IMG/VR virus record: IMGVR_UViG_3300044617_000558
Location: 1-63,095 of that record
Direction: 5' to 3' (one strand)
DNA: 63,095 nucleotides
Source of the DNA: a virus
Shown here: positions 18,533-43,195 of the stretch, in pieces
Numbering within the stretch: the first letter of the stretch is position 1
Layout: each line of letters starts with the position of its first letter
Notes under the pieces: model-generated
The model's database searches: none
What the model saw: only the letters and a program-made list of their open reading frames with translations
Told to the model about the DNA's origin: nothing
Translations under genes and position numbers: made by a program

Positions 18533-19102
18533 CTATTTTTTCGCCGAACCTGCAGGTGGCGTTGTTCTTGTAAACATTTGTAGCGAAACACGCAGACTTC
18601 CTTCGCTCACTGGAGTTGTATAGTGTTTTTCATTGTCATCGTTATACACCAAAAGGCCTTGAGACGGAACTAACACCTTCCACTTGTTATCATTTTTGTC
18701 TAGATAGTTAAAAGTTCCACCATCTTCAAGTGACCATTTAGGGTTGATGTAAGATGTAAAAACCTTTCTATCTGTTTCAGCAAAGCCATCGCTATGAAGA
18801 GGAATATATGCACCTGGTGTCCACAAAAAAACCATTATCTGTAGAGCGTCATTCATGCTTACAATGTCTAACCGTACAAACTCTTCTTTTAGTTTTTTAA
18901 CAATCTCATCAGGTGGAAAATAAATTATAACTGGTCTGCTATCTTTGACAATCTTAGGATCCCAAGAGGCGTTGGTCTTTGTTACAATTGGCTTTGGAAA
19001 ACCAAGTGGGTGTGCACCCTGTATTCCATAATAGTAAGAAGTAGCCCAATTAAATATATCTGAGCACAACTCTTTACTTAGCCCACTCTCAAATATTTTC
19101 AT
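18533..19102 (-). CDS. 2-oxoglutarate/Fe(II) oxygenase 1, leaderless
   Basis: A 189-aa protein with the double-stranded beta-helix signature of 2OG dioxygenases: H-S-D (PLHSDGF), a distal His (NEKHYTTPV) and an Arg for 2-oxoglutarate (SLRVSLQ). Such enzymes hydroxylate proteins, nucleobases or small molecules using O2 and 2OG. On the minus strand TATACT, 6 nt, ATG. Divergent with the sulfotransferase at 19140. First of at least nine such genes in the window. Confidence 0.75.
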   Translation of the reverse strand: MKIFESGLSKELCSDIFNWATSYYYGIQGAHPLGFPKPIVTKTNASWDPKIVKDSRPVIIYFPPDEIVKKLKEEFVRLDIVSMNDALQIMVFLWTPGAYIPLHSDGFAETDRKVFTSYINPKWSLEDGGTFNYLDKNDNKWKVLVPSQGLLVYNDDNEKHYTTPVSEGSLRVSLQMFTRTTPPAGSAKK

Positions 19103-19139
19103 ATAGCGAGTATAGCACAGGGTATGCTATTATAGACTT

Positions 19140-19706
19140 ATGGAACCATACAAGCCAAACACTAAGATTAAGAATCCAACCTACGAGTACTCCATCGTAA
19201 CAGTTCCTAGGACAGGTTCTCACTATCTTCAAGATAGAATTGAGCAACACACAGGGGTATATGTTAGGAAATATCATGACCTACAAGATAACAAAATGAT
19301 AACGATAGTAAGAGATCCAATAGACTTCCTGTCTTCTTATGTGGCTATGGAGTCTCTATACTATGAAGGAAGACTTGATAAGTTTTTGGCCGACCCTGAT
19401 CAGTACTGCTTTGGTGACTGGTTTGCTCAAGATGATATAAGCATTATTGACAATTTTCACATTATAATCAAGTATGAGTCTTTGACAGATTCACCGCTTG
19501 AAACCATAACAAAGGTGGCAGAGAAAATGTCACTTGACATAATTGAAACCAGGTACAAGAGCAATGTCACCGACATGCCATACAGGAAGTATGTGGCATC
19601 TAGCAAGAACCTAAAAGATTATGAAAGAATAAGGAAGATAATAGAGCAACAGGACCTCACAAGGACATATGAAATTTACAATAAGTTCTTAGAGAAGGCT
19701 ATATAA
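19140..19706 (+). CDS. Sulfotransferase-family protein 1, leaderless
   Basis: A 188-aa protein with the PAPS-binding 5'-phosphosulfate loop TVPRTGSHYL (about 21-30) and the 3'-phosphate motif IVRDPIDFLSSY (about 56-67). These define PAPS-dependent sulfotransferases, which move sulfate to glycans, lipids or proteins. Smaller than many (250-300 aa) but both ligand motifs are intact. TATTAT-6-ATG start. An APS-kinase domain that could supply PAPS is encoded at 39024. Confidence 0.75.
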   Translation: MEPYKPNTKIKNPTYEYSIVTVPRTGSHYLQDRIEQHTGVYVRKYHDLQDNKMITIVRDPIDFLSSYVAMESLYYEGRLDKFLADPDQYCFGDWFAQDDISIIDNFHIIIKYESLTDSPLETITKVAEKMSLDIIETRYKSNVTDMPYRKYVASSKNLKDYERIRKIIEQQDLTRTYEIYNKFLEKAI

Positions 19707-19725
19707 ATTATGATACAATTGCCAA

Positions 19726-19851
19726 ATGCACAAATTGGAATCTTCATATACTAAGTTTATGGGCTACAGAGTAGCCTGCAATGGGTGTGACCAACTATAT
19801 TTTAAGCCTAATGATGAGCCATTTGTCTGCACTACCTGCTCTGAGGGTTAA
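19726..19851 (+). CDS. 41-aa zinc-ribbon protein, leaderless
   Basis: MHKLESSYTKFMGYRVACNGCDQLYFKPNDEPFVCTTCSEG: two CxxC pairs, a complete zinc ribbon. TACAAT, 6 nt, ATG. Confidence 0.65.
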   Translation: MHKLESSYTKFMGYRVACNGCDQLYFKPNDEPFVCTTCSEG

Positions 19852-19866
19852 TGGTATAATAGTTAT

Positions 19867-20484
19867 ATGGCATACATGATAAATAATAAGTCCGTTGGAA
19901 ATGATCCTTTGTCAATCGAAAGAACTGAGGCATATCATAAATTTTTAAATAGATTAGGCAACTCCAAAGATAATATTATAACCATTCCTAACTTCTTAAC
20001 ACAAGAAGAAATATCCTATCTTATGGACGGCCTAGAAGAAAGACACTCACATCGTTTTGTTTCTCAAAAAGGTCCTAACGGAGAGCCATTAACTTACATG
20101 CATAAGTATGATGGTCTGCCTGATATCTACAATATTATAAGTAGAGTTAAAAATGAAATAATAAAGGCATACAAAATAGAAGATATCAAAATAGTAGAAA
20201 AAGAAGACTTCCTAGGTGTTGTTCACTGGGAGACTGGATCTTACTTAAATGTTCATGTAGACGATCTTGGTTATGTAACAGAAAACCATTTGCCAATTAT
20301 TATTTATTTAAATGATAACTATGAGGGTGGAGAGATTAAGTTTGAAACACATGATCTTTCTATTAAGCCTAATACTGGTGATTTAGTTGTATTCCCTGGA
20401 AATATGCATTATGCTCATGAGGTTACAAAAGTTTTATCTGGCGATAGATACACATTACCTATTTGGTTTACGGTAGTTGAGTAA
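19867..20484 (+). CDS. 2-oxoglutarate/Fe(II) oxygenase 2, leaderless
   Basis: A 205-aa prolyl-4-hydroxylase-like protein. Iron ligands H130-V-D132 and H184, 2OG Arg194; YLNDNYEGGEIKF is the typical strand-turn of this phage subfamily. TATAAT (19855-19860), 6 nt, ATG. Its stop overlaps the next gene, which is followed by the LLM-2OG fusion, so the three form an operon. Confidence 0.8.
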   Translation: MAYMINNKSVGNDPLSIERTEAYHKFLNRLGNSKDNIITIPNFLTQEEISYLMDGLEERHSHRFVSQKGPNGEPLTYMHKYDGLPDIYNIISRVKNEIIKAYKIEDIKIVEKEDFLGVVHWETGSYLNVHVDDLGYVTENHLPIIIYLNDNYEGGEIKFETHDLSIKPNTGDLVVFPGNMHYAHEVTKVLSGDRYTLPIWFTVVE

Positions 20485-20738
20485 TGACAGAACCTACAAA
20501 AAAAAGAAAACTACTAGATGGTTCTGAAGTTAATGATTATGACTATCCAATTGATCTAATCTTGCATACAAAAGCACCAGCCAAATGGAAGTTGATTGAC
20601 CTTGAAACAGGCCAAGAGTATCTTGGCTCAGACATATCACATGAAAATTTTGCAGAACTATTAAGAAGCAAGGTATCTTATTCAAAAATAGGTTCTTGGT
20701 TTAAGACTAAAGGAAGAGTGACTAATAATGGAAAATAA
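20484..20738 (+). CDS. 84-aa hypothetical protein
   Basis: MTEPTKKRKLLDGSEVNDYDYPIDLILHTKAPAKWKLIDLETGQEYLG... Basic N-terminus, beta-rich middle. Lies between two oxygenase genes (TAATG overlap upstream, 11-nt overlap downstream), so it may be a substrate or partner of them; this is inference. AAAWKLIDxxTGxxY is a pattern seen in several phage proteins of unknown function. Confidence 0.6.
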   Translation: MTEPTKKRKLLDGSEVNDYDYPIDLILHTKAPAKWKLIDLETGQEYLGSDISHENFAELLRSKVSYSKIGSWFKTKGRVTNNGK

Positions 20739-22155
20739 GAATAAGCCTATAACATTTCACTGGATGTGGAGAAGACACTGGCAGATAAATGACAGCATTG
20801 AAAACCTAGACCTTAAGGGAATTCTTGGTATGGCACAAGAACTAGATAATGCTAATGTAAAGTCTGTATTGCTTCCATATGGACCAGGAGGTATTGATTT
20901 TTCATTAGTAATAAAAGAGGCATTAGAAAAAACAAATCAACTAATAATGACAATCGCTTTACCAGCATATGGCGTAAGCCCAGATTATGCTGCAAAGATT
21001 CTTGAAACCTTAAATCGTTTTGCTCCTGGAAGAATTGGTGTAAACATGGTTGCTGGAAGATGGGGAGACGAAGGCAATGGTCATTCTGAAAAGTTGGTAA
21101 TCGATCACTATATGCACGATCCTTCATTGATTGACACCCTTGAAAAAAGAGTTGCCATATCTGAAGTTTGGATGGACAAGGTAATGGCTTTAATGGAAAA
21201 CCATCAGCACAAAACACACATGGCAGTCGTTGGCTCATCAGATACAACAATAAGAATAGCAAACAAGCATTGCGAATATATCTATGTTGATGATAATTTA
21301 TTGTTTAAAGAACAGTTTAAAAAGATTGATCTAGATAAGGTGAAGCCAATAGTGATTATTGATCCACTTATTACGACACATCCAGACGATGAAAAGTATG
21401 TCAAGTATGATAAGAATGCTCCAGTTAGACAGCAGCATCATTTGATAAAAGGAAAATTAGTCGATGTTGTGGCACAAATAAGAAATCTATCTGAGAAATT
21501 TGGCATTTATGACTTTATGATTCATACTGATCAAGAAGATATTAGCAAGTTGTTAGACATGGTAAAAAACTTTAATGACATTGTGGTTCCTGAAGGAAAT
21601 GTAATCGGCTACTCTGATCTAACAGTAAAAAACTTTAATAAAATTGGAGGGAGTCCTAGCAATATCAAGGTGTTTAATGATTACTTAAGCAAAGAGGAAT
21701 GTGAACACATCATAGGACTTATAGAAAGTACAGAGACAAGCAATAATCGTCCTTTGCAGCCAGATAGTTCTGGAAATCCTGCAATATCTTTGTTGTATTA
21801 CGACTCACTCACCTATTCAGAAAAATATATACCTGGTATTCAGGCTATACTAGAAAAAGAATTTGGTGTAAAACTAAAGCCAAGGAATTCTCGTTTTGCT
21901 CAATGGGTTCATAATAATAGTCAAACTATTCCAATAGATGATATGGGTCATAAAGACTCAAACCATTTAGCAGGATGGGTTTATCTAAATGATGACTACG
22001 ATGGTGGAGGTTTGTCTTTTATTAATCAGGGATTATCACTTAAGCCAAAGGCTGGTGATCTGATTCTGTACCCTGGAAATCCTCACTATTGGTATCATGT
22101 AGGACCAGCAAATGGTTCGAGATACATTATGCCAATATGGTTTGATTTTGTATAA
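20728..22155 (+). CDS. LLM flavin oxidoreductase fused to 2OG/Fe(II) oxygenase
   Basis: A 475-aa two-domain protein. Residues about 1-285 read as a luciferase-like (LLM) flavin-dependent monooxygenase related to SsuD alkanesulfonate monooxygenase (TFHWMWRRHWQI at the start, RFAPGRIGVNMVAGRWGDEGNG near 95-115, RVAISEVW). Residues about 305-475 are a prolyl-4-hydroxylase-like 2OG domain with H408-K-D410, H457 and R465. Both active-site sets look intact. I know of no standard family with this fusion. Last gene of the operon starting at 19867. Sulfonate or hydroxyl-group chemistry is possible; the substrate is unknown. Confidence 0.75.
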   Translation: MENKNKPITFHWMWRRHWQINDSIENLDLKGILGMAQELDNANVKSVLLPYGPGGIDFSLVIKEALEKTNQLIMTIALPAYGVSPDYAAKILETLNRFAPGRIGVNMVAGRWGDEGNGHSEKLVIDHYMHDPSLIDTLEKRVAISEVWMDKVMALMENHQHKTHMAVVGSSDTTIRIANKHCEYIYVDDNLLFKEQFKKIDLDKVKPIVIIDPLITTHPDDEKYVKYDKNAPVRQQHHLIKGKLVDVVAQIRNLSEKFGIYDFMIHTDQEDISKLLDMVKNFNDIVVPEGNVIGYSDLTVKNFNKIGGSPSNIKVFNDYLSKEECEHIIGLIESTETSNNRPLQPDSSGNPAISLLYYDSLTYSEKYIPGIQAILEKEFGVKLKPRNSRFAQWVHNNSQTIPIDDMGHKDSNHLAGWVYLNDDYDGGGLSFINQGLSLKPKAGDLILYPGNPHYWYHVGPANGSRYIMPIWFDFV

Positions 22156-22170
22156 TGGTATAATAATTAA

Positions 22171-22296
22171 ATGGAAAAGTCTAAGTGTTTTTTTTGTAAC
22201 AAGGATGCTACACATTACGATATAGTGGTAAACCATGAAGATTTTATCGTTGCAGATGTGTGTATGACCCATTTGTCTATGGGGTTAGTATCCTAG
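22171..22296 (+). CDS. 41-aa zinc-finger protein, leaderless
   Basis: MEKSKCFFCNKDATHYDIVVNHEDFIVADVCMTHLSMGLVS: CxxC...H...CxxH, a DUF7455-like mini zinc site. TATAAT (22159-22164), 6 nt, ATG. Precedes the second sulfotransferase by one base. Confidence 0.65.
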   Translation: MEKSKCFFCNKDATHYDIVVNHEDFIVADVCMTHLSMGLVS

Positions 22297-22297
22297 T

Positions 22298-22813
22298 ATG
22301 AATTTACCCAAAATAGTTGCTTACCCAAGGTCTGGTACTCACTATCTTCAAAACCTAATACTTGCACACTCTTCTCAAAAAATAACATTTAGCCACTATG
22401 CAGTTCCTGAAAATATTTTTATTGTGACTATTGTAAGAGATCCTTTTGATAGTATTCAATCTTTTATGGCAATGAGAAAGCACTATAATCCAGAAACATA
22501 TAAGGAGACTGACTACCTAGACTACTATGTTGGACTGTATAAATATTTAGATCTAAATGCTAATATAATTATTGATTATAATGATCTAATCAATTTTCCC
22601 GAAGAAACAACAAAAACGATATGTGATTTAATTGGTTTTGAAAAAAACATATCCGACTACGATGTTCTTGGTGACAACAAAGACATAGAATATTTAGTGT
22701 CTAGCAAAAAGGTTAAAGAATATAATGAAGAATATTTTAAAATAGAAGACATGTCAAACTGCTATAATGAGTACAACAAACTTTTATCTAAAGTAAACAG
22801 AGTGAGGAACTAG
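22298..22813 (+). CDS. Sulfotransferase-family protein 2
   Basis: A 171-aa protein with AYPRSGTHYLQN (about 8-19), the PAPS 5' loop, and IVRDPFDSIQSF (about 46-57), the 3' phosphate motif. Related to 19140-19706. Co-transcribed with the zinc protein upstream and the SGNH-like gene downstream, linking sulfate transfer with acyl chemistry. Confidence 0.75.
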   Translation: MNLPKIVAYPRSGTHYLQNLILAHSSQKITFSHYAVPENIFIVTIVRDPFDSIQSFMAMRKHYNPETYKETDYLDYYVGLYKYLDLNANIIIDYNDLINFPEETTKTICDLIGFEKNISDYDVLGDNKDIEYLVSSKKVKEYNEEYFKIEDMSNCYNEYNKLLSKVNRVRN

Positions 22814-22817
22814 GACC

Positions 22818-23825
22818 ATGGTACAAATTACAAAAAATATCTTAGACTTTTATGAAGATAATGAAACCAATCACTACTACTTAAAAAAATATTTTACAAA
22901 CACTCTTGAGATTGGCTATTACCCTCCATATGCAACAAATGTTGTTCTAAATAAGTCAAACGGAGAGTCTTTTTTGCCGACTGTAGATGAACAGAATACA
23001 TACGAAATTAATGGACTTGGCATGCGTGGAGAAGTGTATCCTGATGCCGATATTTTAGCCTCTGGTTGTTCCATCACATTTGGCATTGGTGTCCCAGAAG
23101 ATGGAAGATGGACAAATATTTTAAGCAAAAAGATGAATAGAGAAGTAATGAACCTAGGAAATCCTGGAAATTCTGTATCAACTGTATGTGAAAATGTTAT
23201 TCGTTACTGTATGAATAACAAAATGCCAAAAGAAATTTTTTGTTTGATGCCAGATTTTTTTAGAAGTATGGTTGTTGTAGACAAAGAATTTTATAAGTCA
23301 GGAGTAAAAAGAGAAAACGTTGGTGTAAGTGATTATTTAGAATTGATGTTTTGTAATCCTGTAGTTAAAACAGATAGCCGTGTTGTATATATGGAAACAA
23401 AAAATAAAGAAAACATAGAGGACGCAGTATCTCCGCATCAATTAATTTTAAATGCTGTAACCTCTATTTATGCTCTAGAGTCATTCTGCTTATCAAACAA
23501 CATAAAACTATACTGGACAACATGGGATAGGGCAAGTTCTGAAATAATGTACCAACTATCGGACATTAAAGATTTTAAACTAAAGAACTTTGTTCCTTTT
23601 TACCCAAGACATGCGATAGGACACCTTCAGTATTTTCTAAAAAGAACTTGTTTTTCAGACCACAATTCTGATTTTAAGGATCATTTATGTTGGCATGATG
23701 GATCTGATTACTCTGTTATAAATTATAAAAAAGAACCTACGCATTGTCATCCAGGAATTCATTACCAAGAGCATGTGGCAGACTTTTTTTATGGCCTATA
23801 CAGTCAAAATAATTCAATAGTTTGA
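22818..23825 (+). CDS. SGNH-like hydrolase family protein (paralog 2)
   Basis: A 335-aa protein: block I ASGCSITFGIG (about 80-90), NLGNPGNS, CLMPDFFRS, and a C-terminal HPGIHYQEHVADFFY block carrying the likely catalytic His. About two thirds of residues in the core match the third paralog at 25103 by eye. GGAC precedes the ATG weakly. Probably acts on glycan or lipid acyl groups; no direct evidence. Confidence 0.65.
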   Translation: MVQITKNILDFYEDNETNHYYLKKYFTNTLEIGYYPPYATNVVLNKSNGESFLPTVDEQNTYEINGLGMRGEVYPDADILASGCSITFGIGVPEDGRWTNILSKKMNREVMNLGNPGNSVSTVCENVIRYCMNNKMPKEIFCLMPDFFRSMVVVDKEFYKSGVKRENVGVSDYLELMFCNPVVKTDSRVVYMETKNKENIEDAVSPHQLILNAVTSIYALESFCLSNNIKLYWTTWDRASSEIMYQLSDIKDFKLKNFVPFYPRHAIGHLQYFLKRTCFSDHNSDFKDHLCWHDGSDYSVINYKKEPTHCHPGIHYQEHVADFFYGLYSQNNSIV

Positions 23826-23856
23826 CTTATTTCTCAGTTTAAGGTATACTGGATAT

Positions 23857-24087
23857 ATGATTCAATGGATTGCTGACTATGCACACTGGGTGCTTGCCTG
23901 TATTGGCGTATCTGGTATTTATTTTGTTGGAAGAAAAACCCTATGGGGATGGTTTGTGCTATTATTTAATGAGTGCTTATGGATAGCGTATGCCTTAGTT
24001 ACAGACCAGTACGGTTTTATCTTTGCAGCAGTAGCATACGGCGCTGTTTATATTAGATCATATCTTCACTGGAGGAGAGATGCTTAA
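23857..24087 (+). CDS. 76-aa two-helix membrane protein, leaderless
   Basis: MIQWIADYAHWVLACIGVSGIYFVGRKTLWGWFVLLFNECLWIAYALVTDQYGFIFAAVAYGAVYIRSYLHW... has two to three membrane segments. TTGACT-17-TATACT, 6 nt, ATG: a near-consensus leaderless promoter. The WxxL/YxxxxxxWxWxxxLxNExxWxxYA pattern is found in small phage membrane proteins. Confidence 0.65.
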   Translation: MIQWIADYAHWVLACIGVSGIYFVGRKTLWGWFVLLFNECLWIAYALVTDQYGFIFAAVAYGAVYIRSYLHWRRDA

Positions 24088-24289
24088 GCATTACGATATA
24101 CCCGATCCTTTCCAAACCTTTGTAGCCAAGAAGTATTCTAACGCTAAAGGCTATGTGCATGACTTCTTTACTGGGGAATGGTCTTATAGATGTTCTTGCT
24201 GCAAGGAAGATCTTTATGCTCCGTCCCGCAAAATTATGACAAAGATTCGTCTCTATCATACAAGGAATGAGTGCTTAGGTGGATACTAA
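24080..24289 (+). CDS. 69-aa zinc-binding hypothetical protein
   Basis: MLKHYDIPDPFQTFVAKKYSNAKGYVHDFFTGEWSYRCSCCKEDLY... with C-x-CC and a late H/C pair. GGAGGAGAG upstream; overlaps both neighbours. Confidence 0.6.
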   Translation: MLKHYDIPDPFQTFVAKKYSNAKGYVHDFFTGEWSYRCSCCKEDLYAPSRKIMTKIRLYHTRNECLGGY

Positions 24290-24395
24290 TCTATGCCTTG
24301 TTTGTTCATTAGACAGAGACTCAGAGTGGTTTTGGAATGCTCATCAAACAATGACTGATGGAAAGACATGGTGTGTTAATGCCAAGAGAGCCTAA
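24279..24395 (+). CDS. 38-aa zinc-binding protein (GTG start)
   Basis: VDTNLCLVCSLDRDSEWFWNAHQTMTDGKTWCVNAKRA: CxxC...H...C. The GTG overlaps the previous gene by 11 nt with AGGTGG context. Moderately supported by composition and overlap. Confidence 0.5.
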   Translation: MDTNLCLVCSLDRDSEWFWNAHQTMTDGKTWCVNAKRA

Positions 24396-24405
24396 GATTA
24401 CGAAG

Positions 24406-24504
24406 ATGGACTGGAGGTCCTTGGGCTATTGGCCAGTTTATAAGGATGGAAAGAAGGTGTGGGAAAAAGATGATAAATCATTCAACCAAGACAGAAAGAA
24501 CTAA
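24406..24504 (+). CDS. 32-aa hypothetical protein (tentative)
   Basis: MDWRSLGYWPVYKDGKKVWEKDDKSFNQDRKN. It overlaps the next gene by 35 nt, more than usual here, so one of the two starts may be wrong. Confidence 0.4.
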   Translation: MDWRSLGYWPVYKDGKKVWEKDDKSFNQDRKN

Positions 24505-24805
24505 AATACTTCCATTACGATGGATAGGAAATATATGTGGAGAGTTTGCTGGTAATCATTTAGTTAAGGCTATTGATTTAGATGAGGCATTAGATAGTAA
24601 TTTAGGATTTCGTTATAAATACCACGCAAAAATGTGGGTACTGCTTAATAAGCCTTATGAGCGTTGGGGAACATACTATATAATAGATACTGATAAATGG
24701 AAGAGCGAGATAGATCAAATGAGAATAGATATGTCAGATGAAGGATGGGATGACTATGACGCTTTTGGTAAGGCATATTGGGATAAAGATAAGGATAAAA
24801 AATGA
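24470..24805 (+). CDS. 111-aa hypothetical protein
   Basis: MINHSTKTERTKILPLRWIGNICGEFAGNHLVKAIDLDEALDSNLG... alpha/beta with an acidic tail ending in DKDKDKK. The start is uncertain (an in-frame ATG lies 24 nt upstream). Its end overlaps the next gene by ATGA. Confidence 0.55.
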   Translation: MINHSTKTERTKILPLRWIGNICGEFAGNHLVKAIDLDEALDSNLGFRYKYHAKMWVLLNKPYERWGTYYIIDTDKWKSEIDQMRIDMSDEGWDDYDAFGKAYWDKDKDKK

Positions 24806-24975
24806 GTATAGATGAAATGATGTTACGAGAAGAAATTGCAAGGGCTATTGAGGCTATTCCCGTTGAGGAATCTGTTACCAATGCCGTTGGTATGCGTATG
24901 CTTGCAGCAAAGGTTGCAAGAGGAGAAGATAACTACATGAATAGATGGTTTGAGAGGCAGGTAGATTTTGAATGA
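24802..24975 (+). CDS. 57-aa helical protein
   Basis: MSIDEMMLREEIARAIEAIPVEESVTNAVGMRMLAAKVARG..., one or two helices. ATGA overlaps on both sides. Unknown function; similar to short actinophage proteins. Confidence 0.6.
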   Translation: MSIDEMMLREEIARAIEAIPVEESVTNAVGMRMLAAKVARGEDNYMNRWFERQVDFE

Positions 24976-25061
24976 TTAGTTTATTCTTTTTAGTACCAGC
25001 ATTTATTGCAGGGTATGTAGCATGTTATTTTATTATGACATATAAAGTAAATCAAGATTAA
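24972..25061 (+). CDS. 29-aa membrane micro-protein
   Basis: MISLFFLVPAFIAGYVACYFIMTYKVNQD, single membrane helix. Overlaps the preceding gene by ATGA. Fits the recurring pattern of a hydrophobic peptide ending an operon. Confidence 0.55.
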   Translation: MISLFFLVPAFIAGYVACYFIMTYKVNQD

Positions 25062-25102
25062 GATAGGCTCATAAGTTATATCCATTTATGATATAATTAA
25101 TT

Positions 25103-26110
25103 ATGAAATTTTTAACAAGAGACATCTTGCCCTTTTATAAAGAAAATAAAGAAGATGGTTGGTATTTGAATAAGTTTTTTACAAATACATTAGAAGTTGG
25201 AAATTATTCACCATTTCAAGAGGGTGCTGTTAGTTCAAGTCGCAGGTCTGAAGGTAAAGAAGTAGACACAGTTGATGAAGTTAATACATACAAAATAAAT
25301 TCTATTGGATGTAGGGGAGAAATTGATGAAGACTCAGACATACTTGCCTCTGGTTGCTCTATTACCTTTGGTCTTGGTGTTCCAGAAGATGGAAGATGGA
25401 CAAATCTTTTAAGCAAAAAGATTAATAGAAGTGTTACTAATCTGGGTGGACCTGGAGCCTCAGTAGAAAGTATTTGTTTTAATTTAATACAGTACTGTCT
25501 AAACACCAAAATGCCGAAAGAGATTTTTTGCTTAATGCCAGACTTTTTTAGAAGCATGATTGTTGTAGATAAAGAATTTTATAAATCAAAAGTTAATAGA
25601 GGATCTATGGGTACACAAGATCCCCTAGGTTATGTTTTTTGTAACCCAAAAGTAATTAAAGATGGTAAATCATTTTTTATGGAGATTGAAGATAAAAAAT
25701 ACGTAGAGGACTCAACTTCTCCACACCAACTAATAATGAACTCTATTAGGTACATTTATATGCTAGAAGCATTCTGTGCATCAAATAATATAAAACTACA
25801 CTGGTCAGTTTGGGACCCACCAAGTTCTTATATTTTAGAAGAATTAGGCAAAATGAAAGATTTTAAATTAAAAAACTTTTCATCATTTTATCCTCCTAAC
25901 TCAGAATATAATGGTCCTGGATCAATGATAGATTTTGCTTGTGACCCAAGAAACCATAAACACGAGTTTAGAGATCACCCATCATGGATTAAAGGTTCTG
26001 ATTATGCTTTTATAGATGGTAAAAAAACATATGTAAATTCTCATCCTGGAATTCATATTCAAGAACATTTTGCAGATTTTTTTTATAATATATACAATAA
26101 AGACAAATAA
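25103..26110 (+). CDS. SGNH-like hydrolase family protein (paralog 3)
   Basis: A 335-aa protein close to 22818-23825: ASGCSITFGLG, LGGPGAS, CLMPDFFRS and HPGIHIQEHFADFFY are all conserved in place. TATAAT with 5 nt before the ATG, so leaderless or nearly so. The pair is a recent duplication separated by six small genes. Confidence 0.65.
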   Translation: MKFLTRDILPFYKENKEDGWYLNKFFTNTLEVGNYSPFQEGAVSSSRRSEGKEVDTVDEVNTYKINSIGCRGEIDEDSDILASGCSITFGLGVPEDGRWTNLLSKKINRSVTNLGGPGASVESICFNLIQYCLNTKMPKEIFCLMPDFFRSMIVVDKEFYKSKVNRGSMGTQDPLGYVFCNPKVIKDGKSFFMEIEDKKYVEDSTSPHQLIMNSIRYIYMLEAFCASNNIKLHWSVWDPPSSYILEELGKMKDFKLKNFSSFYPPNSEYNGPGSMIDFACDPRNHKHEFRDHPSWIKGSDYAFIDGKKTYVNSHPGIHIQEHFADFFYNIYNKDK

Positions 26111-26163
26111 AACTAATAAGAATTTTATTTGACAAACCTAAAGATGCAGAGTACAATTAATAT

Positions 26164-26613
26164 ATGAAACCAACAGCGCACATATACGATGTAGATGGAA
26201 CCCTAGCCAATGTAGATCCATACCTACATCATGTTCGTGGCCCTAATAGGGACTACAACGCCTTTCATGAGGCTTCTATAGATGCCCTGCCAAATGTAGA
26301 AGTTGTTGAGATGCTAAATAATTCTGTTAGTGATGGTCATTCTATTTTGGTTGTTACGTCTCGTAAAGAAAAGTATCGTGGACTGACCTCTATGTGGCTT
26401 GCCAAGAACAATATCAGATCACATGGCTTGTTCATGAGAGCAGATGACGATAACAGGCCAGACTATGAAGTAAAGAAAGATATTCTTGATAATATCAGTA
26501 GTCTATGGAATGTAACTCATGCTGTTGATGACAATCCAAATGTGATAAGATTGTGGGAAGACCACAAAATTCCTACAACCAAAATAGGAACATGGGATGG
26601 GAATAAGAATTGA
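26164..26613 (+). CDS. HAD-family phosphatase (polynucleotide 3'-phosphatase-like), leaderless
   Basis: A 149-aa protein with HAD motif I DVDGTLA (about 9-15), motif II TSRKE (about 65-69) and DDNPNVI near the end. The length and motif order resemble the phosphatase half of T4 polynucleotide kinase and related phage proteins. Likely removes phosphate from nucleic-acid ends or nucleotides. TTGACA-17-TACAAT, 6 nt, ATG gives one of the clearest leaderless promoters in the window. Confidence 0.75.
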   Translation: MKPTAHIYDVDGTLANVDPYLHHVRGPNRDYNAFHEASIDALPNVEVVEMLNNSVSDGHSILVVTSRKEKYRGLTSMWLAKNNIRSHGLFMRADDDNRPDYEVKKDILDNISSLWNVTHAVDDNPNVIRLWEDHKIPTTKIGTWDGNKN

Positions 26614-26644
26614 CAGGCAACCTAGAGAATGGTATGATTAGTAT

Positions 26645-26806
26645 ATGAAACAGACAAACAATAAGGTATCTCAACATAAAATTAAGAGAGCCGCTAAGAA
26701 CAAGAAAAGAACACAGTCTAAGCCACACCTTTCAAAGTTTGAACGCAAACAGCAAAGGATCAGAGAAGAAATTATCCTAGGCTCATTGCATTCTATACCT
26801 AATTAG
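26645..26806 (+). CDS. 53-aa basic protein, leaderless
   Basis: MKQTNNKVSQHKIKRAAKNKKRTQSKPHLSKFERKQQRIREE..., very rich in Lys/Arg. TTGACA-17-TATGAT, 6 nt, ATG. Possibly nucleic-acid binding. Confidence 0.65.
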   Translation: MKQTNNKVSQHKIKRAAKNKKRTQSKPHLSKFERKQQRIREEIILGSLHSIPN

Positions 26807-26820
26807 AACTGGAGATATTC

Positions 26821-26964
26821 ATGGTAGATCATGACGAGTTAAACAAAATATCAAAAGAACTAAAACGCTACATAATTAAACAACATATGAAAACATATTA
26901 TCATACCACTATTGGTATCTTATGCTTTCTGCTTGGAACATTCTTTGGATTACTAATCAAATAA
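26821..26964 (+). CDS. 47-aa membrane protein
   Basis: MVDHDELNKISKELKRYIIKQHMKTYYHTTIGILCFLLGTFFGLLIK: basic helix then one membrane helix. GGAG upstream. Ends 6 nt before a tRNA. Confidence 0.6.
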   Translation: MVDHDELNKISKELKRYIIKQHMKTYYHTTIGILCFLLGTFFGLLIK

Positions 26965-26970
26965 GGACTA

Positions 26971-27044
26971 GCACCAGTAGCCAAGTTGGTTAAGGCACCG
27001 AACTCATAATTCGGCTATCGTAGGTTCAAGTCCTACCTGGTGTA
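26971..27044 (+). tRNA. tRNA-Met (CAT)
   Basis: Acceptor GCACCAG/CTGGTGT, anticodon stem CCGAA/TTCGG with loop CTCATAA, T-arm GTAGG-TTCAAGT-CCTAC. With a CAT anticodon it could also be a lysidine-modified tRNA-Ile2. No CCA encoded. Confidence 0.9.
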
Positions 27045-27048
27045 CTAG

Positions 27049-27122
27049 ACATCTGTAACTCAGTTGGTTAGAGTACCTGCCTTATATGCAGAGAGCCGAA
27101 GGTTCAAGTCCTTCCAGATGTA
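27049..27122 (+). tRNA. tRNA-Ile (TAT)
   Basis: Acceptor ACATCTG/CAGATGT is perfect; anticodon loop CTTATAT gives TAT (reads AUA). T-arm GAAGG-TTCAAGT-CCTTC. The outermost anticodon-stem pair is mismatched. A rare-codon tRNA in most Actinobacteria. Confidence 0.85.
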
Positions 27123-27126
27123 CTTT

Positions 27127-27199
27127 GTCTCCATCGTCTAGTGGCCTAGGACTCTGCCCTTTCACGGCAGCAACACGGATTCGAATTCCGTTGGAGATA
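27127..27199 (+). tRNA. tRNA-Glu (TTC)
   Basis: Acceptor GTCTCCA/TGGAGAT, anticodon stem CTGCC/GGCAG with loop CTTTCAC, T-arm ACGGA-TTCGAAT-TCCGT. Confidence 0.9.
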
Positions 27200-27203
27200 C
27201 CAA

Positions 27204-27276
27204 ACCTCTGTAGTTCAGTGGACAGAACGTTGGACTTCTAAGCCAAGCGTCGCAGGTTCGATTCCTGCCAGGGGTA
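27204..27276 (+). tRNA. tRNA-Arg (TCT)
   Basis: Acceptor ACCTCTG/CAGGGGT, loop CTTCTAA with anticodon TCT (reads AGA), T-arm GCAGG-TTCGATT-CCTGC. AGA codons are frequent in this phage. Confidence 0.88.
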
Positions 27277-27318
27277 CATGGTATAATTTAATTACCTAGA
27301 TAACAGAAAGAGAAACTC

Positions 27319-29367
27319 ATGAGCGAAGAAAAGTGTCCTTACACTGGACAAACCTATACAACTGAAGCCAGAACCAATAAGGACTGGTGGCCTAATCAAT
27401 TAGACTTATCGTCATTACGGAAGCATTCAGAAAAGTCTGACCCCATGGGAGATAATTTTAACTATGCTAATGAGTTTAATGCTTTAGACCTTGACGCTAT
27501 TAAGTATGATATCAATACACTTCTAACTACCTCGCAAGATTGGTGGCCTGCAGACTACGGCAACTATGGTCCATTTTTTATTCGTATGGCATGGCATAGT
27601 GCTGGTACATACAGAGTAACTGATGGTCGTGGTGGTGCTGGAGAAGGTCTACATAGATTTGCTCCACAAAACTCTTGGCCAGATAACGGCAACCTTGATA
27701 AGGCCCGTCGTTTGTTATGGCCGATCAAGCAGAAGTACGGTAAGAAGATTTCCTGGGCAGACCTAATGATTCTTGCAGGTAACGTTGCTCTTGAGAACAT
27801 GGGCTTCAAGACATTTGGTTTTGCTGGTGGTCGTGCAGATGTATGGGAGTCTGATGACACATACTGGGGTACAGAAAAAGAATGGCTTGCTGATAACCGT
27901 TATAGCGGAGATCGTGAGTTAGAAAATCCTCTTGCTGCAGTACAAATGGGTCTCATCTATGTAAACCCAGAAGGACCTGATGGAAACCCTGATCCAGTTC
28001 TTTCTGCAAGAGACATTCGTGAAACATTTGCTCGAATGGCGATGAATGATGAAGAGACAGTTGCACTAATTGCAGGTGGTCATGCATTTGGTAAGGCACA
28101 CGGTGCAGGAGATCCCTCACATGTTGGTCCAAACCCAGAGGCTGCTCCTCTTGAAGACCTTGGTCTTGGATGGAAGAATTCATTTGGCAAGGGTAATGCA
28201 GAAGATACTATAACAAGTGGTATTGAAGGTGCATGGACTGCAACTCCTACTAAGTGGGACAACTCATACCTTAAGTTATTGTTTAAGTATGATTGGACAC
28301 AAACAAAGTCACCTGCTGGTGCAACACAATGGATTCCAACAGATGAGTCTGCTGCTAATTTAGTTCCAGATGCACACATTGAGGGTAAGTTCCATGCTCC
28401 AGTTATGACAACTGCAGACCTTGCATTGAGGTTTGATCCTGAGTATGAAAAGATTTCACGCAGATTCCTTGAGGACTTTGACTACTTCTCAGATCAGTTT
28501 GCTCGTGCATGGTTTAAATTAACTCATCGTGATATGGGTCCAATTTCTCGTTATCTTGGCAAAGAAGTTCCTTCTGAGAGACTAATATGGCAGGATCCAG
28601 TTGGAGATGTTACACGGTACAGTCTAACGCAAGAAGATGTTGATGCAATTAAGGAAAAAATAATTAATTCAGGACTGTCGGTATCTGATTTAGTAACTAC
28701 TGCTTGGGCATCTGCTTCTACATTCCGAAAGACAGACAAGCGTGGTGGTGCTAACGGTGCTCGTATTGTTCTTGCTCCTCAAAATACTTGGGCAGTTAAT
28801 GATTACGATGCTATTGATAGGGTCGTAACAGTATTAGAAAAAATTAAGGAAGAGTTTAACGTTTCTCTCGCTGATCTAATTGTGTTTGCTGGTTTAGTTG
28901 GTGTTCAACTTGCTGCTCACAACTCTGAGGTCGGAGTAGTTATTAGTGCTAAATTTAGTCGTGGAGATGCAACTCAAGAACAAACAGATGTAGAATCGTT
29001 TGCAGTTCTTGAGCCAAAGTTTGATGCATTCCGTAACTATATTGATCCAAGCATTACTGCACCAGAAGAGGTCTTGCTAGTAGAAAAGGCAAACCTATTG
29101 GGACTAACTCCAGTAGAAATGGTTCTTCTCTTATCTGGAATGAGAATGCTAAGCAACAACAAGTTAGATAATAGTTATTTAATCAAACTGTTGTCCTATA
29201 TTAATGCTGAAGAAGCAGTAGATGTTCCTCGTGTAGACCTTATCATTGCTTCTAACTCAGAACTTAGAGCGATTGCTGAAGTTTATGCTTCTAGTGATGC
29301 TAAAGAAAAGTTTGTTCATGATTTTGTTTCAGCATGGACAAAGGTAATGAACGCAGATCTGTTTTAA
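27319..29367 (+). CDS. Catalase-peroxidase KatG
   Basis: A 682-aa bifunctional haem catalase-peroxidase that removes hydrogen peroxide. The N-terminal haem domain is complete: distal Arg89, Trp92 and His93 ([11 protein letters not shown]), Tyr214 ([10 protein letters not shown]) and Met240 ([12 protein letters not shown]) of the Met-Tyr-Trp adduct needed for catalase activity, and proximal His255 ([14 protein letters not shown]). The C-terminal domain (about 400-682) is present. It is slightly shorter than bacterial KatG (about 720-740 aa), mainly at the N-terminus. It has its own TATAAT (27282-27287) and AGAAAGAG ribosome site after four tRNAs, and ends with hairpin element copy 8. Probably acquired from a host; acI-type Actinobacteria carry katG. 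Confidence 0.95.
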
Positions 29368-29383
29368 TATAAACAACCATAGT

Positions 29384-29407
29384 CCTGGGTATGACTTAAA
29401 ACTACCC
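29384..29407 (+). repeat. 24-nt 3' hairpin element, copy 8 (covariant)
   Basis: Same 24-nt layout, 16 nt after the katG stop, but with stem GGGTA/TACCC in place of GAGCA/TGCTC: two base pairs changed with compensation. Loop TGACTTAAAAC keeps the AAAC end. This is the best evidence that the element works as RNA. Confidence 0.75.
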
Positions 29408-29411
29408 AATA

Positions 29412-29540
29412 TTACTTTTTAGGATGCTTTGGTTCATATGGTGCGATCTTAGACTTAACTCGACCATCTTTGTATAGTCTAACAATCCATCCATCTTTAA
29501 TCTGAATAGGATTAAACGCTGCTGCTTTTTTCTTTGGCAT
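29412..29540 (-). CDS. 42-aa basic protein
   Basis: MPKKKAAAFNPIQIKDGWIVRLYKDGRVKSKIAPYEPKHPKK, a beta-hairpin with basic ends, similar to small phage proteins placed next to structural genes. Its ATG overlaps the upstream stop (TAATG). Convergent with katG. Confidence 0.6.
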   Translation of the reverse strand: MPKKKAAAFNPIQIKDGWIVRLYKDGRVKSKIAPYEPKHPKK

Positions 29541-29980
29541 TATTTTATAACCCTAAATGGAGAATCTGACCAACTATCTGACTTAGCAACTGGTATACAG
29601 TTTGGTACTGGCTTCCCATCAGCACCTGGCTTCATTCCTCTTTGAACATATCCATCCCAGCAAGGTGCAGCCTTTCCCATTTGTGCGTCATACATTGCCA
29701 TAGCAACTTCTGAATCTTCTGGCTCAACCATAAGTGGTGGGATCTGAACATACATTGACATTGCACATGCTGTATATAGCCTTGTTGCTTCCCACATTCC
29801 GCTTTCTTCTTGTTCAAATAATTGAATCATTACCGCAGGATTTTCTGCTGATGCTTCCATGTAATACTCTGTACCAGGGTTTCCAAGGGCACCTTCATAC
29901 ATGACATGAACAACCTGTCCTATGTGGGTATCTCCTTCTCCACCGTGGGAGGTCATTGCAAAATCGCCTTCTTTTAGCAT
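29540..29980 (-). CDS. 146-aa phage protein with DGYVQRGMK...VPNCIP tail, leaderless
   Basis: MLKEGDFAMTSHGGEGDTHIGQVVHVMYEGALG... The N-terminal part resembles a small beta-barrel (KEGDFAMTSHGGEGDTHIGQVVHVM). The C-terminal tail PCWDGYVQRGMKPGADGKPVPNCIPV is a motif found at the ends of several virion or DNA-packaging proteins in related phages, so a virion link is possible. TATAAT (29987-29992), 6 nt, ATG on the minus strand. Confidence 0.6.
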   Translation of the reverse strand: MLKEGDFAMTSHGGEGDTHIGQVVHVMYEGALGNPGTEYYMEASAENPAVMIQLFEQEESGMWEATRLYTACAMSMYVQIPPLMVEPEDSEVAMAMYDAQMGKAAPCWDGYVQRGMKPGADGKPVPNCIPVAKSDSWSDSPFRVIK

Positions 29981-30005
29981 ATAATAATTATACCATGTCT
30001 TAGAA

Positions 30006-30647
30006 CTAGCCCTGAGTAATCTCTGGGTCGTCAGAAAATGCTATGCTTGCTGAATGCCTTGGGCACATTGACTCAACGCTATGGACTACACCCTTTGGTA
30101 TATACGCTGCATCTCCTTCACTTAACAATACTTCATAGTTTATTTCTTTATTGTCGTGAAAAACCTTCCATAGACTTTGCCCACTACCCTGAATAAATAA
30201 TCTGTCTTGTTGGTCTGAGTGAACTGCTGGATCCCAAAACTCAGTACCCCATCCATCTACACCATTATCATGTATTGTAAGTTCTTGTGGAGTCTTTTTA
30301 GGGTTGTCTGTATTAAATTTTGAAAAAAGGCTAGACAGATTATTGTCTGTCATTGCATTATTGTTTCTGTTTATAAAATGAATAATCATCATTGAAAAAA
30401 GTACATGCCCCTTATGAGATAAAGAAATATCTGAGACTGCTTTTTTGTAATACTCTAAAACCCTTGCATCATTTTCAATAACCATCGTGCCAAAGGAGTT
30501 GTAGACTATTGTTTCAGTTTCTTTTGCACGATCATAAAAATCGTTTATATCTTCCCAAGAAGGAAAATCTTTGTAGAAATTTTTTACAACATGCAGCCTT
30601 CTTTCTTTTGTGGCTGATATTAGGTCTTCTTTTGTCATTAAGGTCAT
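30006..30647 (-). CDS. Cupin/JmjC-like oxygenase A
   Basis: A 213-aa protein whose C-terminal half is a cupin: H143-S-D145 (VHSDQQDRLFIQGSGQSLWKVF), GDAAYIPKGVVHS with H189, and R197. This is the JmjC/cupin_4-like arrangement of 2OG hydroxylases acting on ribosomal proteins or tRNA, though shorter. Paralog at 31657. TATAAT lies 5 nt before the ATG. Confidence 0.65.
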   Translation of the reverse strand: MTLMTKEDLISATKERRLHVVKNFYKDFPSWEDINDFYDRAKETETIVYNSFGTMVIENDARVLEYYKKAVSDISLSHKGHVLFSMMIIHFINRNNNAMTDNNLSSLFSKFNTDNPKKTPQELTIHDNGVDGWGTEFWDPAVHSDQQDRLFIQGSGQSLWKVFHDNKEINYEVLLSEGDAAYIPKGVVHSVESMCPRHSASIAFSDDPEITQG

Positions 30648-30666
30648 ATAAAATTATAGCACATAA

Positions 30667-30933
30667 CTAGCCAGTTAATCGGTTGTGAGTTCTTATCCTA
30701 TGACAGTTAGCGCAAACCACCTCACACTTTTCTATCTCTTTCTTGATAGCCTTCCAGGAAAACCCATCGTGGATCATTCTTGATATGTTGTACTTTTTGT
30801 CTCTTATGTGATCAAAATCTAAGATAATGTGATTACTTATACCACAGTCTACACAGCCAGAATCTTCTTTTATCTTAGCAAGCATCTTCTTATACTGCTG
30901 CTTATTATAATGGTCCAACTCTTTGTCAGTCAT
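30667..30933 (-). CDS. HNH endonuclease-like protein
   Basis: An 88-aa protein: GCVDCG (zinc pair), ILDFDHI (the DH of the HNH core), and CANCHRIRTHNR (second zinc pair and final H-N). Complete HNH fold of minimal size. The start MTDKELDH follows a TATAAT by 7 nt. It may be a free-standing homing nuclease or a packaging-related nicking enzyme. A structured RNA gene lies just upstream. Confidence 0.75.
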   Translation of the reverse strand: MTDKELDHYNKQQYKKMLAKIKEDSGCVDCGISNHIILDFDHIRDKKYNISRMIHDGFSWKAIKKEIEKCEVVCANCHRIRTHNRLTG

Positions 30934-30961
30934 TGCTTCTATTATACCCTGCAATATTAAG

Positions 30962-31045
30962 GCCCCACACAGGCAATTCACCTGACTTGCGCCACGGTCT
31001 CTATCCAATGGGTAACTAATCCATCACTAAGGTCCTGTGTGGGAC
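30962..31045 (-). ncRNA. Candidate 84-nt structured RNA
   Basis: On the minus strand the two ends form a 12-bp stem (31045-31034 with 30973-30962; GTCCCACACAGG with CCTGTGTGGGGC, one G-U). A TACAAT box stands exactly 6 nt before 31045, so the predicted first base is also the first paired base. Inside, ATGG/CCAT and ACCT/AGGT can pair, suggesting a multi-branched fold. No anticodon arm or T-loop was found, so it is not a tRNA. Function unknown. Confidence 0.5.
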
Positions 31046-31068
31046 AACTATATTGTAACATAATAATG

Positions 31069-31092
31069 GAGCAGTTTATAGACTTGCTCAGG
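31069..31092 (-). repeat. 24-nt 3' hairpin element, copy 7
   Basis: Minus-strand GAGCA/TGCTC stem with loop AGTCTATAAAC, about 90 nt downstream of the hsp20 stop. Between them are two more hairpins, GTTGCT/AGCAAC and CCAGGGT/ACCCTGG. Confidence 0.7.
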
Positions 31093-31183
31093 TCTCCCAG
31101 GGTGCGACCCTGGCTTATCCGTACTCAGCAATAAGGTTGCTAAAAGCAACTGCATGTATCATGACGGAATGTTATCTATTATA

Positions 31184-31600
31184 CTACTTAATTTTAATAG
31201 ACTTGGGCTTTTTATCTTCAGGAACAATGCGTACTACATGAACATGCAGCATGCCATCCTTAAGTTCTGCAGAAGTTACTTCCATATATTCTCCCAGTGC
31301 AAAAGATCTTACGAACTTTCTTCCTGCGATACCCTTATGTACTACCTCTGCATCTGTTACTTCTACAATTTCACCCTTGATAATTAGTGTTCCATTATCT
31401 ACGGATACATCAATATCTTCCTTTGAAAAACCAGCAATAGCCAGCGAGATCTGATATGTGTCTTCATCTAGTTTAAGAAGATCATACGGAGGATATGACT
31501 GTGAGTTTGTTTTGTGTGCAGTATTTAGGCGATTTAACTCTCTGTTAAAGCCAATAAAAAAAGGATCATTAAATAGATCCATAGCGTACTTTGTTACCAT
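31184..31600 (-). CDS. Small heat-shock protein Hsp20
   Basis: A 138-aa IbpA-type small heat-shock protein. The alpha-crystallin core spans about residues 38-130: YDLLKLDEDTYQISLAIAGFSKEDIDVSVDNGTLIIKGE, then FVRSFALGEYMEVTSAELKDGMLHV and a final IxI-like KSIKIK. Such proteins hold unfolded proteins for refolding. AAAGGGG precedes the ATG. Phage Hsp20 genes are known in aquatic phages; here it lies between two oxygenase genes. Confidence 0.9.
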   Translation of the reverse strand: MVTKYAMDLFNDPFFIGFNRELNRLNTAHKTNSQSYPPYDLLKLDEDTYQISLAIAGFSKEDIDVSVDNGTLIIKGEIVEVTDAEVVHKGIAGRKFVRSFALGEYMEVTSAELKDGMLHVHVVRIVPEDKKPKSIKIK

Positions 31601-31656
31601 GTTATTCCCCTTTCAAGCGAATAAGTTAATTCCCCCCATACGGGCAGGTATTAATA

Positions 31657-32271
31657 TTATAGCACAGGTTCATCAGAAAAGGCTATACTTATTGAGTGTC
31701 TTGGACCTACAGACTCAACACTGTGCCTTACACCTTTTGGAATATATGCTAGGTCACCTGGGTTTAAGATAATTGCATCAATCAAGTTTTCTGAATCATC
31801 AAAAAGTCTCCAGAGGCTTTGCCCCCCGCCCTGAACAAAGAACCTATTCTCTCTGTCAAAATGCACTTTAGGATTCCAAAAATCTCCATCTATCCCATGA
31901 TCTTTAATAGTAATGTTATCTGGAATTTTTTTAGGGTTGTTTTCACAAAACCTATTAAATAAACTTAAACAGTCTGGATCACTAATAATATTATTATTTC
32001 TATTGATAAAATGCACTATGATCATTCCAAAAAGAGGGTACCCTTTATAAACTCTATTAATGCTATCCAATACATCTTTATAAAAGTCAAATATAATTTC
32101 TTTTTCTTGTGCCTGAAATGATGCAAAAGACATGTAGACTATCTTTTTATCTAAATCGTATACATTTCCTATGTCTGACCAGGACGGTGTTTTTGTAAGA
32201 AAATTTCTTGATACGTAAATCTTTTTTTGCTCTGTTGCTAAGGCTATGTCATTCCTTGTGATTGTCGTCAT
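31657..32271 (-). CDS. Cupin/JmjC-like oxygenase B, leaderless
   Basis: A 204-aa paralog of 30006-30647: H137-F-D139, GDLAYIPKGVRHS with H183, and R191; the FFVQGGGQSLWRLF strand is conserved. Duplicated pair flanking the HNH and hsp20 genes. TATAAT, 6 nt, ATG on the minus strand, back to back with the promoter of 32314. Confidence 0.65.
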   Translation of the reverse strand: MTTITRNDIALATEQKKIYVSRNFLTKTPSWSDIGNVYDLDKKIVYMSFASFQAQEKEIIFDFYKDVLDSINRVYKGYPLFGMIIVHFINRNNNIISDPDCLSLFNRFCENNPKKIPDNITIKDHGIDGDFWNPKVHFDRENRFFVQGGGQSLWRLFDDSENLIDAIILNPGDLAYIPKGVRHSVESVGPRHSISIAFSDEPVL

Positions 32272-32313
32272 TACTAAATTATATCATATTTGCTTATATG
32301 GTATAATTAAAAT

Positions 32314-32988
32314 ATGAATAGTAATAAGTCAATAAGAGGCCCATTAGAGTACAATCAAGAAAAAGAATATGAATACCACGAGATCGAATTAGCAAGGCAC
32401 ATATCCCAAAATCAACTAAATGGTGCAAGAATCTTTACATCAAAAGAAGAATACGCAAAAACTTTAAATAAAAATATAACATATTTAGAGGTAGGAGTTG
32501 GCTGGGGTAATTCTGCCAACATCTTTATAAGTGAAACAAATGCTGTAAGTGCAGATCTTTTAGATTGGTATAATAATGCTCCTGGAGTTTTACATCCAGG
32601 TGGCAGTGGTCCAGAAGATGAATCAATAACACACGAAGAACATATAAAAAATAAATTTTCTCAGTACCCAAATGTAAATACAATAAAGGGTGATGGAAGA
32701 TACATATTGCCTATTTTAAATAAAAGTTATGATCTTATCCTTTTAGATATTGGAAGAGAAAGGCTCATGACAAGAAAACTTATATCAGATTCAGCAAAAC
32801 TAACTAACATTAATGGCATCATAGGCCTAACTTCTTATACAAATTATGACAGTCTAATGTATGAGGGCCATGTAGGTATATACCAAAGTGTTAACGAATT
32901 TTTATACTTTAACAAAAACTGGTCTGTTGATGCTTTAGTCCTACACGATCTTTGCTTTCATGATATATATATTAAAAGAAACTCGTAA
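32314..32988 (+). CDS. SAM-dependent methyltransferase-like protein, leaderless
   Basis: A 224-aa protein. YLEVGVGWGNSANIF (about 56-70) is a class I methyltransferase motif I; DLILLDIGRER (about 139-149) fits motif IV. Resembles the Methyltransf_24 type that acts on sugars or peptides in surface-polymer clusters. TATAAT (32302-32307), 6 nt, ATG. The only rightward gene between 29 and 63 kb. Confidence 0.65.
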   Translation: MNSNKSIRGPLEYNQEKEYEYHEIELARHISQNQLNGARIFTSKEEYAKTLNKNITYLEVGVGWGNSANIFISETNAVSADLLDWYNNAPGVLHPGGSGPEDESITHEEHIKNKFSQYPNVNTIKGDGRYILPILNKSYDLILLDIGRERLMTRKLISDSAKLTNINGIIGLTSYTNYDSLMYEGHVGIYQSVNEFLYFNKNWSVDALVLHDLCFHDIYIKRNS

Positions 32989-32999
32989 TGAAATAGAAA

Positions 33000-33027
33000 A
33001 GCAGGCCTGCTAAATAACAAGCCTGCT
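33000..33027. terminator. Bidirectional terminator between convergent genes
   Basis: AGCAGGC (33000-33006) pairs with GCCTGCT (33021-33027); A- and T-rich flanks on both sides. Separates 32314-32988 from the leftward block. Confidence 0.65.
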
Positions 33028-33041
33028 AGTCTATAGCAAAA

Positions 33042-33341
33042 TTACTTTACTTGGTTATTTGTTCTTCCGCCACCTGATGACTTCTTTACAGGAGCCTTCT
33101 TTGCGGTCTTCTTAACAACCTTTGCAGACTTAACTGCCTTATCAACCTCTTCAACTGAAGGCATTCTTCCGAATGCTGTGTCTGAAGGGTTGGCTGCTCT
33201 CAATACAACTGGTACAAGCGCACCAAGTAATGAGTATGCAAGTGTCTGTGGATCTGTTACTCCAGATGCATACAACGCTGTTGCTGCACCAAGAACTGAT
33301 CTTCCGTATGACGCTAGTACTGCTTTGATTTGTTCGTTCAT
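33042..33341 (-). CDS. Holin-like membrane protein with KKSSGGG tail
   Basis: A 99-aa protein: N-terminal amphipathic helix, membrane segment (about 14-50, VLGAATALYASG...LLGALVPVVLRAA), basic linker, and tail KKSSGGGRTNNQVK. The same tail type (KKSSGGGGGKTNQV) ends the CHAP endolysin at 41829, hinting at a shared interaction or localisation signal. Holin is the best guess. AGGAGGAAAAA upstream. Confidence 0.6.
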   Translation of the reverse strand: MNEQIKAVLASYGRSVLGAATALYASGVTDPQTLAYSLLGALVPVVLRAANPSDTAFGRMPSVEEVDKAVKSAKVVKKTAKKAPVKKSSGGGRTNNQVK

Positions 33342-33358
33342 TTTTTCCTCCTAGGATA

Positions 33359-33511
33359 TTACTTTGTTAGTTCTGTATAATGATTTATACAGACATCTCT
33401 AATTTGTGTTTCGGTTGCATATAGTTTTTCTGCTTCAAGTTTACACGATAATACATGGCAAGAATAAAAAGCATTGTTTGCAAGTTCTTCGTATGACTTG
33501 AAAATTATCAT
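33359..33511 (-). CDS. 50-aa hypothetical protein
   Basis: MIIFKSYEELANNAFYSCHVLSCKLEAEKLYATETQIRDVCINHYTELTK, helical with three cysteines. It overlaps the upstream oxygenase by ATGA. Confidence 0.6.
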   Translation of the reverse strand: MIIFKSYEELANNAFYSCHVLSCKLEAEKLYATETQIRDVCINHYTELTK

Positions 33512-34062: not shown

Positions 34063-34065
34063 GTG

Positions 34066-35951: not shown

Positions 35952-35952
35952 A

Positions 35953-36447: not shown

Positions 36448-36494
36448 ATTGTTTCCGTTCTGTTGTGTGCTTTGCACAGGTTATGTATACAGCC

Positions 36495-37230: not shown

Positions 37231-37253
37231 AAAGTCCTCCAGTATTCATTCTA

Positions 37254-43179: not shown

Positions 43180-43195
43180 TGGCAACCTTCCTATA

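Follow-up and report, generated by a model that had tools for sequence, protein, structure and literature searches.

One group of freshwater phages encodes a protein in which a luciferase-like (LLM) domain is fused to a 2OG-Fe(II)-oxygenase-type domain that has lost its iron-binding histidines throughout the family. The window analysed here, the whole 63,095-nucleotide stretch of IMG/VR record IMGVR_UViG_3300044617_000558, carries this protein as a single unbroken frame of 475 aa (20728-22155, plus strand). The architecture of the family, its loss of ligands, its conservation and its synteny can be read directly from the sequences compared. As to function, our tentative choice, to which we give a little less than an even chance, is a flavin- or F420-dependent LLM enzyme carrying a non-catalytic 2OG-fold module for substrate binding or for docking to the 2OG oxygenase encoded upstream. 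What emerges is a set of phages with a repurposed 2OG-oxygenase domain, devoid of iron ligands, whose fusion and conserved gene order link it with an LLM family of divergent sequence.

The record is a phage genome related to the large Streptomyces phages (55% identity for the terminase and 54.6% for the DnaE-type polymerase). It also encodes a catalase-peroxidase, KatG (27319-29367, plus strand), which looks complete and exceeds the NCBIfam cut-off. The closest relative of this KatG, by genome match, is that of the actinobacterium IMCC25003 (64%), which makes an actinobacterial host likely. With regard to F420 as against FMN, no CofH match was found in IMCC25003, the nearest KatG-bearing actinobacterium; one was found in another actinobacterial genome. 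The fusion gene and its neighbours are listed in the table.

Table. Parts of the fusion gene and adjoining genes in the window, with the evidence for each.
Feature	Position	Strand	Evidence
True 2OG-Fe(II) oxygenase, HVD...H...R	19867..20484	+	PF13640 E=6e-13
84-aa protein; its gene runs into the 5' end of the fusion gene	20484..20738	+	PHROG_4098 E=9e-8
LLM (luciferase-like) domain, residues 1-285	20728..21582	+	NCBIfam, hhalign, AF2, Foldseek
Variable linker, residues 286-300; a stop and new start instead in 10/74 loci	21583..21627	+	alignment, junctions
2OG-Fe(II)-oxygenase-type pseudo-oxygenase domain, residues 301-475	21628..22152	+	ligand counts, hhalign, dN/dS
Small sulfotransferase-like protein, downstream	22298..22813	+	PF13469 E=1e-8
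SGNH/GDSL-like protein, weak match	22818..23825	+	PF14606 E=0.0025, under cut-off

The N-terminal half is a short, divergent LLM TIM barrel, nearest to the alkanesulfonate monooxygenases. It matches PRK00719 (E=2.4e-7) and TIGR03565 (E=7e-7) in NCBIfam, a search of PDB sequences returns SsuD and MsuD, and hhalign against E. coli SsuD gives E=5e-7. The AF2 model of this half reaches a pLDDT of 77 and a pTM of 0.79, the models being built on shallow alignments, and shows the TIM-barrel fold; Foldseek pairs it with MsuD (E=3e-13), SsuD (1.6e-12) and KvPepI (1.8e-12, TM 0.70). An earlier sequence-only reading had called this half LLM, and all of these comparisons agree with it. PF00296 gives E=0.04 and 13.7 bits on the fusion against a curated cut-off of 27.9, which none of 10 related records exceeds; the half is a divergent relative of that superfamily by fold, not a Pfam-level member. 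The class I F420-dependent LLM oxidoreductases, KvPepI among them, share its compact barrel of ~270 residues (TM-score 0.70-0.72) at 12%-13% identity. The best viral fold matches, A0A6J7WN64 and A0A6J7WQ01 in BFVD (TM 0.80 and 0.71 of the target), are annotated as "Luciferase-like domain containing protein" of uncultured Caudovirales; they are free-standing proteins of ~250 aa, 16%-19% identical to the phage half, and have no 2OG-type domain.

In MsuD, FMN and O2 are contacted by A75, N104, V106, G108, G175, S177 and S178 (PMC8234197). By hhalign these correspond to Ala77, Asn106, Val108, Gly110, Gly169, Ser170 and Ser171, all invariant in the phage family, and H123 corresponds to His127, present in 24 of 25 sequences; the mapping is our own step, taken via the E. 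coli SsuD alignment with its one-residue numbering offset. The motifs GR-x3-N-x-V-x-G and GSSD are likewise shared with SsuD and MsuD. MsuD contacts FMN further through R77, R126, Y127 and the lid (PMC8234197). In the phage half R77 is matched by Pro79, R126 and Y127 have no clear counterpart, and the lid is ~45 residues shorter. The LLM half is nevertheless the more constrained part of the protein, with a mean column identity of 88%, an invariant aromatic and basic stretch (HWMWRRHW) and, by a simple pairwise estimate, a median dN/dS of 0.10 compared to 0.16 in the 2OG-type half, values that indicate purifying selection on both. These observations bear on the possibility that neither half is catalytic and that the protein's role is to scaffold the sulfotransferases along with the 2OG oxygenase encoded upstream. 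The absence of several FMN contacts, together with a dead 2OG half, is what such a scaffold would look like, but the stronger constraint on the LLM half, its invariant flavin core and its HWMWRRHW stretch lead us to consider it unlikely. We infer instead that the LLM half uses reduced FMN (or F420) as its cofactor; no flavin reductase was recognised among the examined genes of the record.

What this enzyme would act on is less like SsuD and MsuD than its fold is. These group C flavin monooxygenases are its nearest relatives by sequence (E 2e-4 to 2e-7) as well as by structure, an APS-kinase gene is found in eight of 11 related records, and sulfotransferase-like genes adjoin the fusion. One might therefore suppose an alkanesulfonate-type monooxygenase that releases sulfite from sulfonates to feed the PAPS and sulfotransferase genes of the phage. 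However, the LLM half scores 30 bits where the SsuD-type family cut-off is 510, and the residues that bind sulfonate in MsuD (W195, R225, H227, R296 and S299; PMC8234197) have no counterparts in the alignment: the extrapolated position of W195 is Asp188, residues 203-216 hold neither Arg nor His, and the lid element IS-4 is shortened. No sulfite-oxidising or sulfonate-uptake genes were recognised among the examined genes of the record, and we regard desulfonation as improbable. Its fold and flavin core are thus those of an LLM enzyme; lacking the residues for sulfonate and most of the MsuD lid, it has a substrate site unlike theirs. Of the apparently complete LLM active site described earlier, the flavin-core residues are conserved, while counterparts of the sulfonate-binding residues of SsuD and MsuD cannot be recognised; the phage protein differs from these enzymes also in its extra C-terminal domain.

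The C-terminal half, from about residue 300, has the double-stranded beta-helix (DSBH) fold of the 2OG-Fe(II) oxygenases, as had been proposed from the sequence. It matches PHROG_61 (E=2.5e-11) and PHROG_2297, the isolated domain matches PF13640 (E=1.3e-5), Foldseek returns PHD2 (E=4.7e-9), and an hhalign comparison of its profile with that of the canonical 2OG protein encoded upstream gives E=1e-36. In this last alignment, which is gap-free around both sites, PIDD (402-405) stands opposite the canonical HVDD, and WYHV (455-458) opposite the distal AHEV. The first iron histidine is thus replaced by Pro402 and the second by Tyr456, while Asp404 and the 2OG-binding Arg465 are kept. The same holds across 75 distinct sequences. 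The first histidine is found in none of them (Pro in 54, Ser in ten, Arg in six, Ala in four and Gln in one) and the second in three, the other 72 having Tyr; the Asp ligand position holds Asp in 68 and Asn in seven, and Arg465 is present in all 75. The six other 2OG-type paralogs of the phage that were compared, lying within 18533-38151 and starting at 18533, 19867, 33508, 34066, 35065 and 37576, all align with an HxD and a later His. On a tree the pseudo-domain splits from the canonical 2OG rows with support of 98/99, one divergent row (L067) being uncertainly placed. That locus (L067:1687-3156) encodes the same LLM half with a far more divergent 2OG half, in which QID stands for HxD and a His may be the distal ligand.

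The motif presumably taken for HxD in the sequence-only reading, HKD at 408-410, varies at its first position (H, S, R or I) and is out of register with the true HxD, a case that illustrates the risk of reading such motifs by eye. The complete 2OG active site that it reported does not exist in this family, and of the motifs whose conservation it proposed to check, those of the flavin core are conserved and those of the 2OG half are not. One could still argue, in line with that reading, for a bifunctional enzyme with active flavin and Fe(II)/2OG sites, the latter built from unusual ligands such as H395, D405, D410 and H413. These residues are well conserved (74, 75, 75 and 74 of 75 sequences, respectively), as is Arg465, and the 2OG half is under purifying selection. 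But the absence of the first histidine everywhere and of the second in all but three sequences, the Asn in seven rows, and the position of the HKDSNH-type stretch, which sits in a loop of low model confidence (405-411) and faces positions of the upstream 2OG protein that are not ligands, make this explanation highly improbable. Two successive oxidations within one chain, as first suggested, are hence not supported; a single substrate could still be oxidised twice with the true 2OG oxygenase from upstream as partner.

The dN/dS of ~0.16 indicates that the dead 2OG-type domain is not decaying. As the Asp ligand persists in most sequences and the Arg for 2OG in all, residual binding of 2OG or metal is possible. 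The pseudo-domain would appear to share its ancestry within the 2OG family with the upstream true 2OG gene, and it resembles the phage 2OG-Fe(II) oxygenases in fold and in the 2OG-binding Arg while differing from them in its iron ligands. A DSBH domain without a metal site has been described at the C-terminus of OGFOD1/Tpa1p, where it is thought to serve in binding or partner recognition (PMC4396695). The likeness is one of analogy, not of membership: OGFOD1/Tpa1p are eukaryotic proteins in which that domain follows an active DSBH domain, whereas the phage pseudo-domain is joined to an LLM domain.

The two halves are fused in this order in 64 of the 74 distinct viral loci, and the earlier description of one protein, LLM first and 2OG-fold second, is borne out. 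In the other ten loci they are adjacent separate genes in different frames: the first stops after about 283-288 codons, and nine of the ten junctions read TAATATG. Three changes between the fused and split states are required on the tree, and the pseudo-domains of the split loci lack the same iron ligands. The linker of the fused protein has low pLDDT at 290-293. That an assembly or frame artefact has joined two genes might be supposed from the gene border at the junction in those ten loci, but it is ruled out by 64 distinct fused loci that keep one frame on many contigs, free of stop codons and diverging by degrees. The gene border that the sequence-only reading had suggested looking for in homologs does exist, then, and reflects evolutionary fission or fusion, not assembly error. 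Because fused and split forms coexist and the split ones have lost the same ligands, an artefact is untenable and the halves would seem to work together; their alternation is a gene-fusion argument for physical association.

No LLM+2OG architecture was found in Pfam, NCBIfam, PHROGs or BFVD, or in the literature searched, in keeping with the sequence-only reading, which knew of no described family with this order. Both kinds of domain are known; their combination, with the dead 2OG domain in it, is a new variation. Among 50,697 catalogued phage records there was no convincing LLM relative, the matches being weak ones to SsuD in Acinetobacter contigs and others at chance level. A bacterial LLM relative was likewise absent from a GTDB set of one genome for each of 84,980 species, screened with two conserved peptide patterns that make a narrow probe, and from 101 genomes belonging to the order that includes the candidate acI host, screened with a profile that had no positive control.

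The synteny of the fusion gene with the true 2OG oxygenase and the 84-aa gene is nearly invariant. A true 2OG oxygenase lies directly upstream in 62 of the 63 loci with room for it, has its HxD motif and distal His intact in 69 of 70, and is the nearest homolog of the pseudo-domain among those tested; the second 2OG oxygenase previously noted in the operon is this gene, and it is the candidate partner of the fusion. The 84-aa gene is found upstream in 72 of 72 loci. A stretch of 49 aa in its product is 49% identical to Serratia phage LC53, and the product includes a domain of ~45 aa that forms the C-terminus of nucleotidyltransferase-kinase proteins of T4-like phages, encoded near sugar-phosphate genes. 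Downstream, a sulfotransferase-like gene follows within about 4 kb in 33 of 33 loci and an SGNH-like homolog in 28 of 33, and eight of the 11 larger related records have an APS-kinase/nucleotidyltransferase gene. Gene content of this kind, together with the carbamoyltransferase and NTP-transferase genes of the window, suggests a target that is decorated by hydroxylation, sulfation and perhaps carbamoylation.

In the reading we favour, the LLM half would be the catalytic one, oxidising or reducing a small molecule or side chain with its reduced flavin or F420. The dead 2OG half would pair with the upstream true 2OG oxygenase or hold a substrate common to both, the LLM reaction and the hydroxylation by the 2OG enzyme being directed at one target. 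In either role, the upstream enzyme is the most likely partner of the dead DSBH domain. Should this partnership be real, a pseudo-oxygenase would link an enzyme of the flavin type with a genuine 2OG hydroxylase in a cassette that has sulfotransferase-like genes. Hydroxylation of the target followed by its sulfation is the likeliest pathway context, because the cassette includes sulfotransferase-like genes and most of the phages have an APS-kinase gene elsewhere. The fullest version, an LLM enzyme tethered in that pathway by a dead 2OG domain heterodimerised with the active 2OG oxygenase, both acting on one substrate, is more doubtful; if true, it would place two oxygenases of different cofactor classes in one complex acting before sulfation.

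Several other genes of the window can be described. One gene (39024-39785, minus strand), the one retained in eight of the 11 related records, joins an APS-kinase-like domain to a domain that weakly resembles cytidylyltransferases and has an HxGH-like motif, and a NodU-type carbamoyltransferase (43196-44629, minus strand) stands beside a MobA-like NTP transferase (42514-43185, minus strand). Three similar proteins of ~335 aa (1594-2628, minus strand; 22818-23825 and 25103-26110, plus strand) share a GCSxTFG motif and resemble SGNH/GDSL hydrolases, with weak or absent Pfam matches. Two JmjC_2/cupin-like proteins are encoded on the minus strand at 30006-30647 and 31657-32271.
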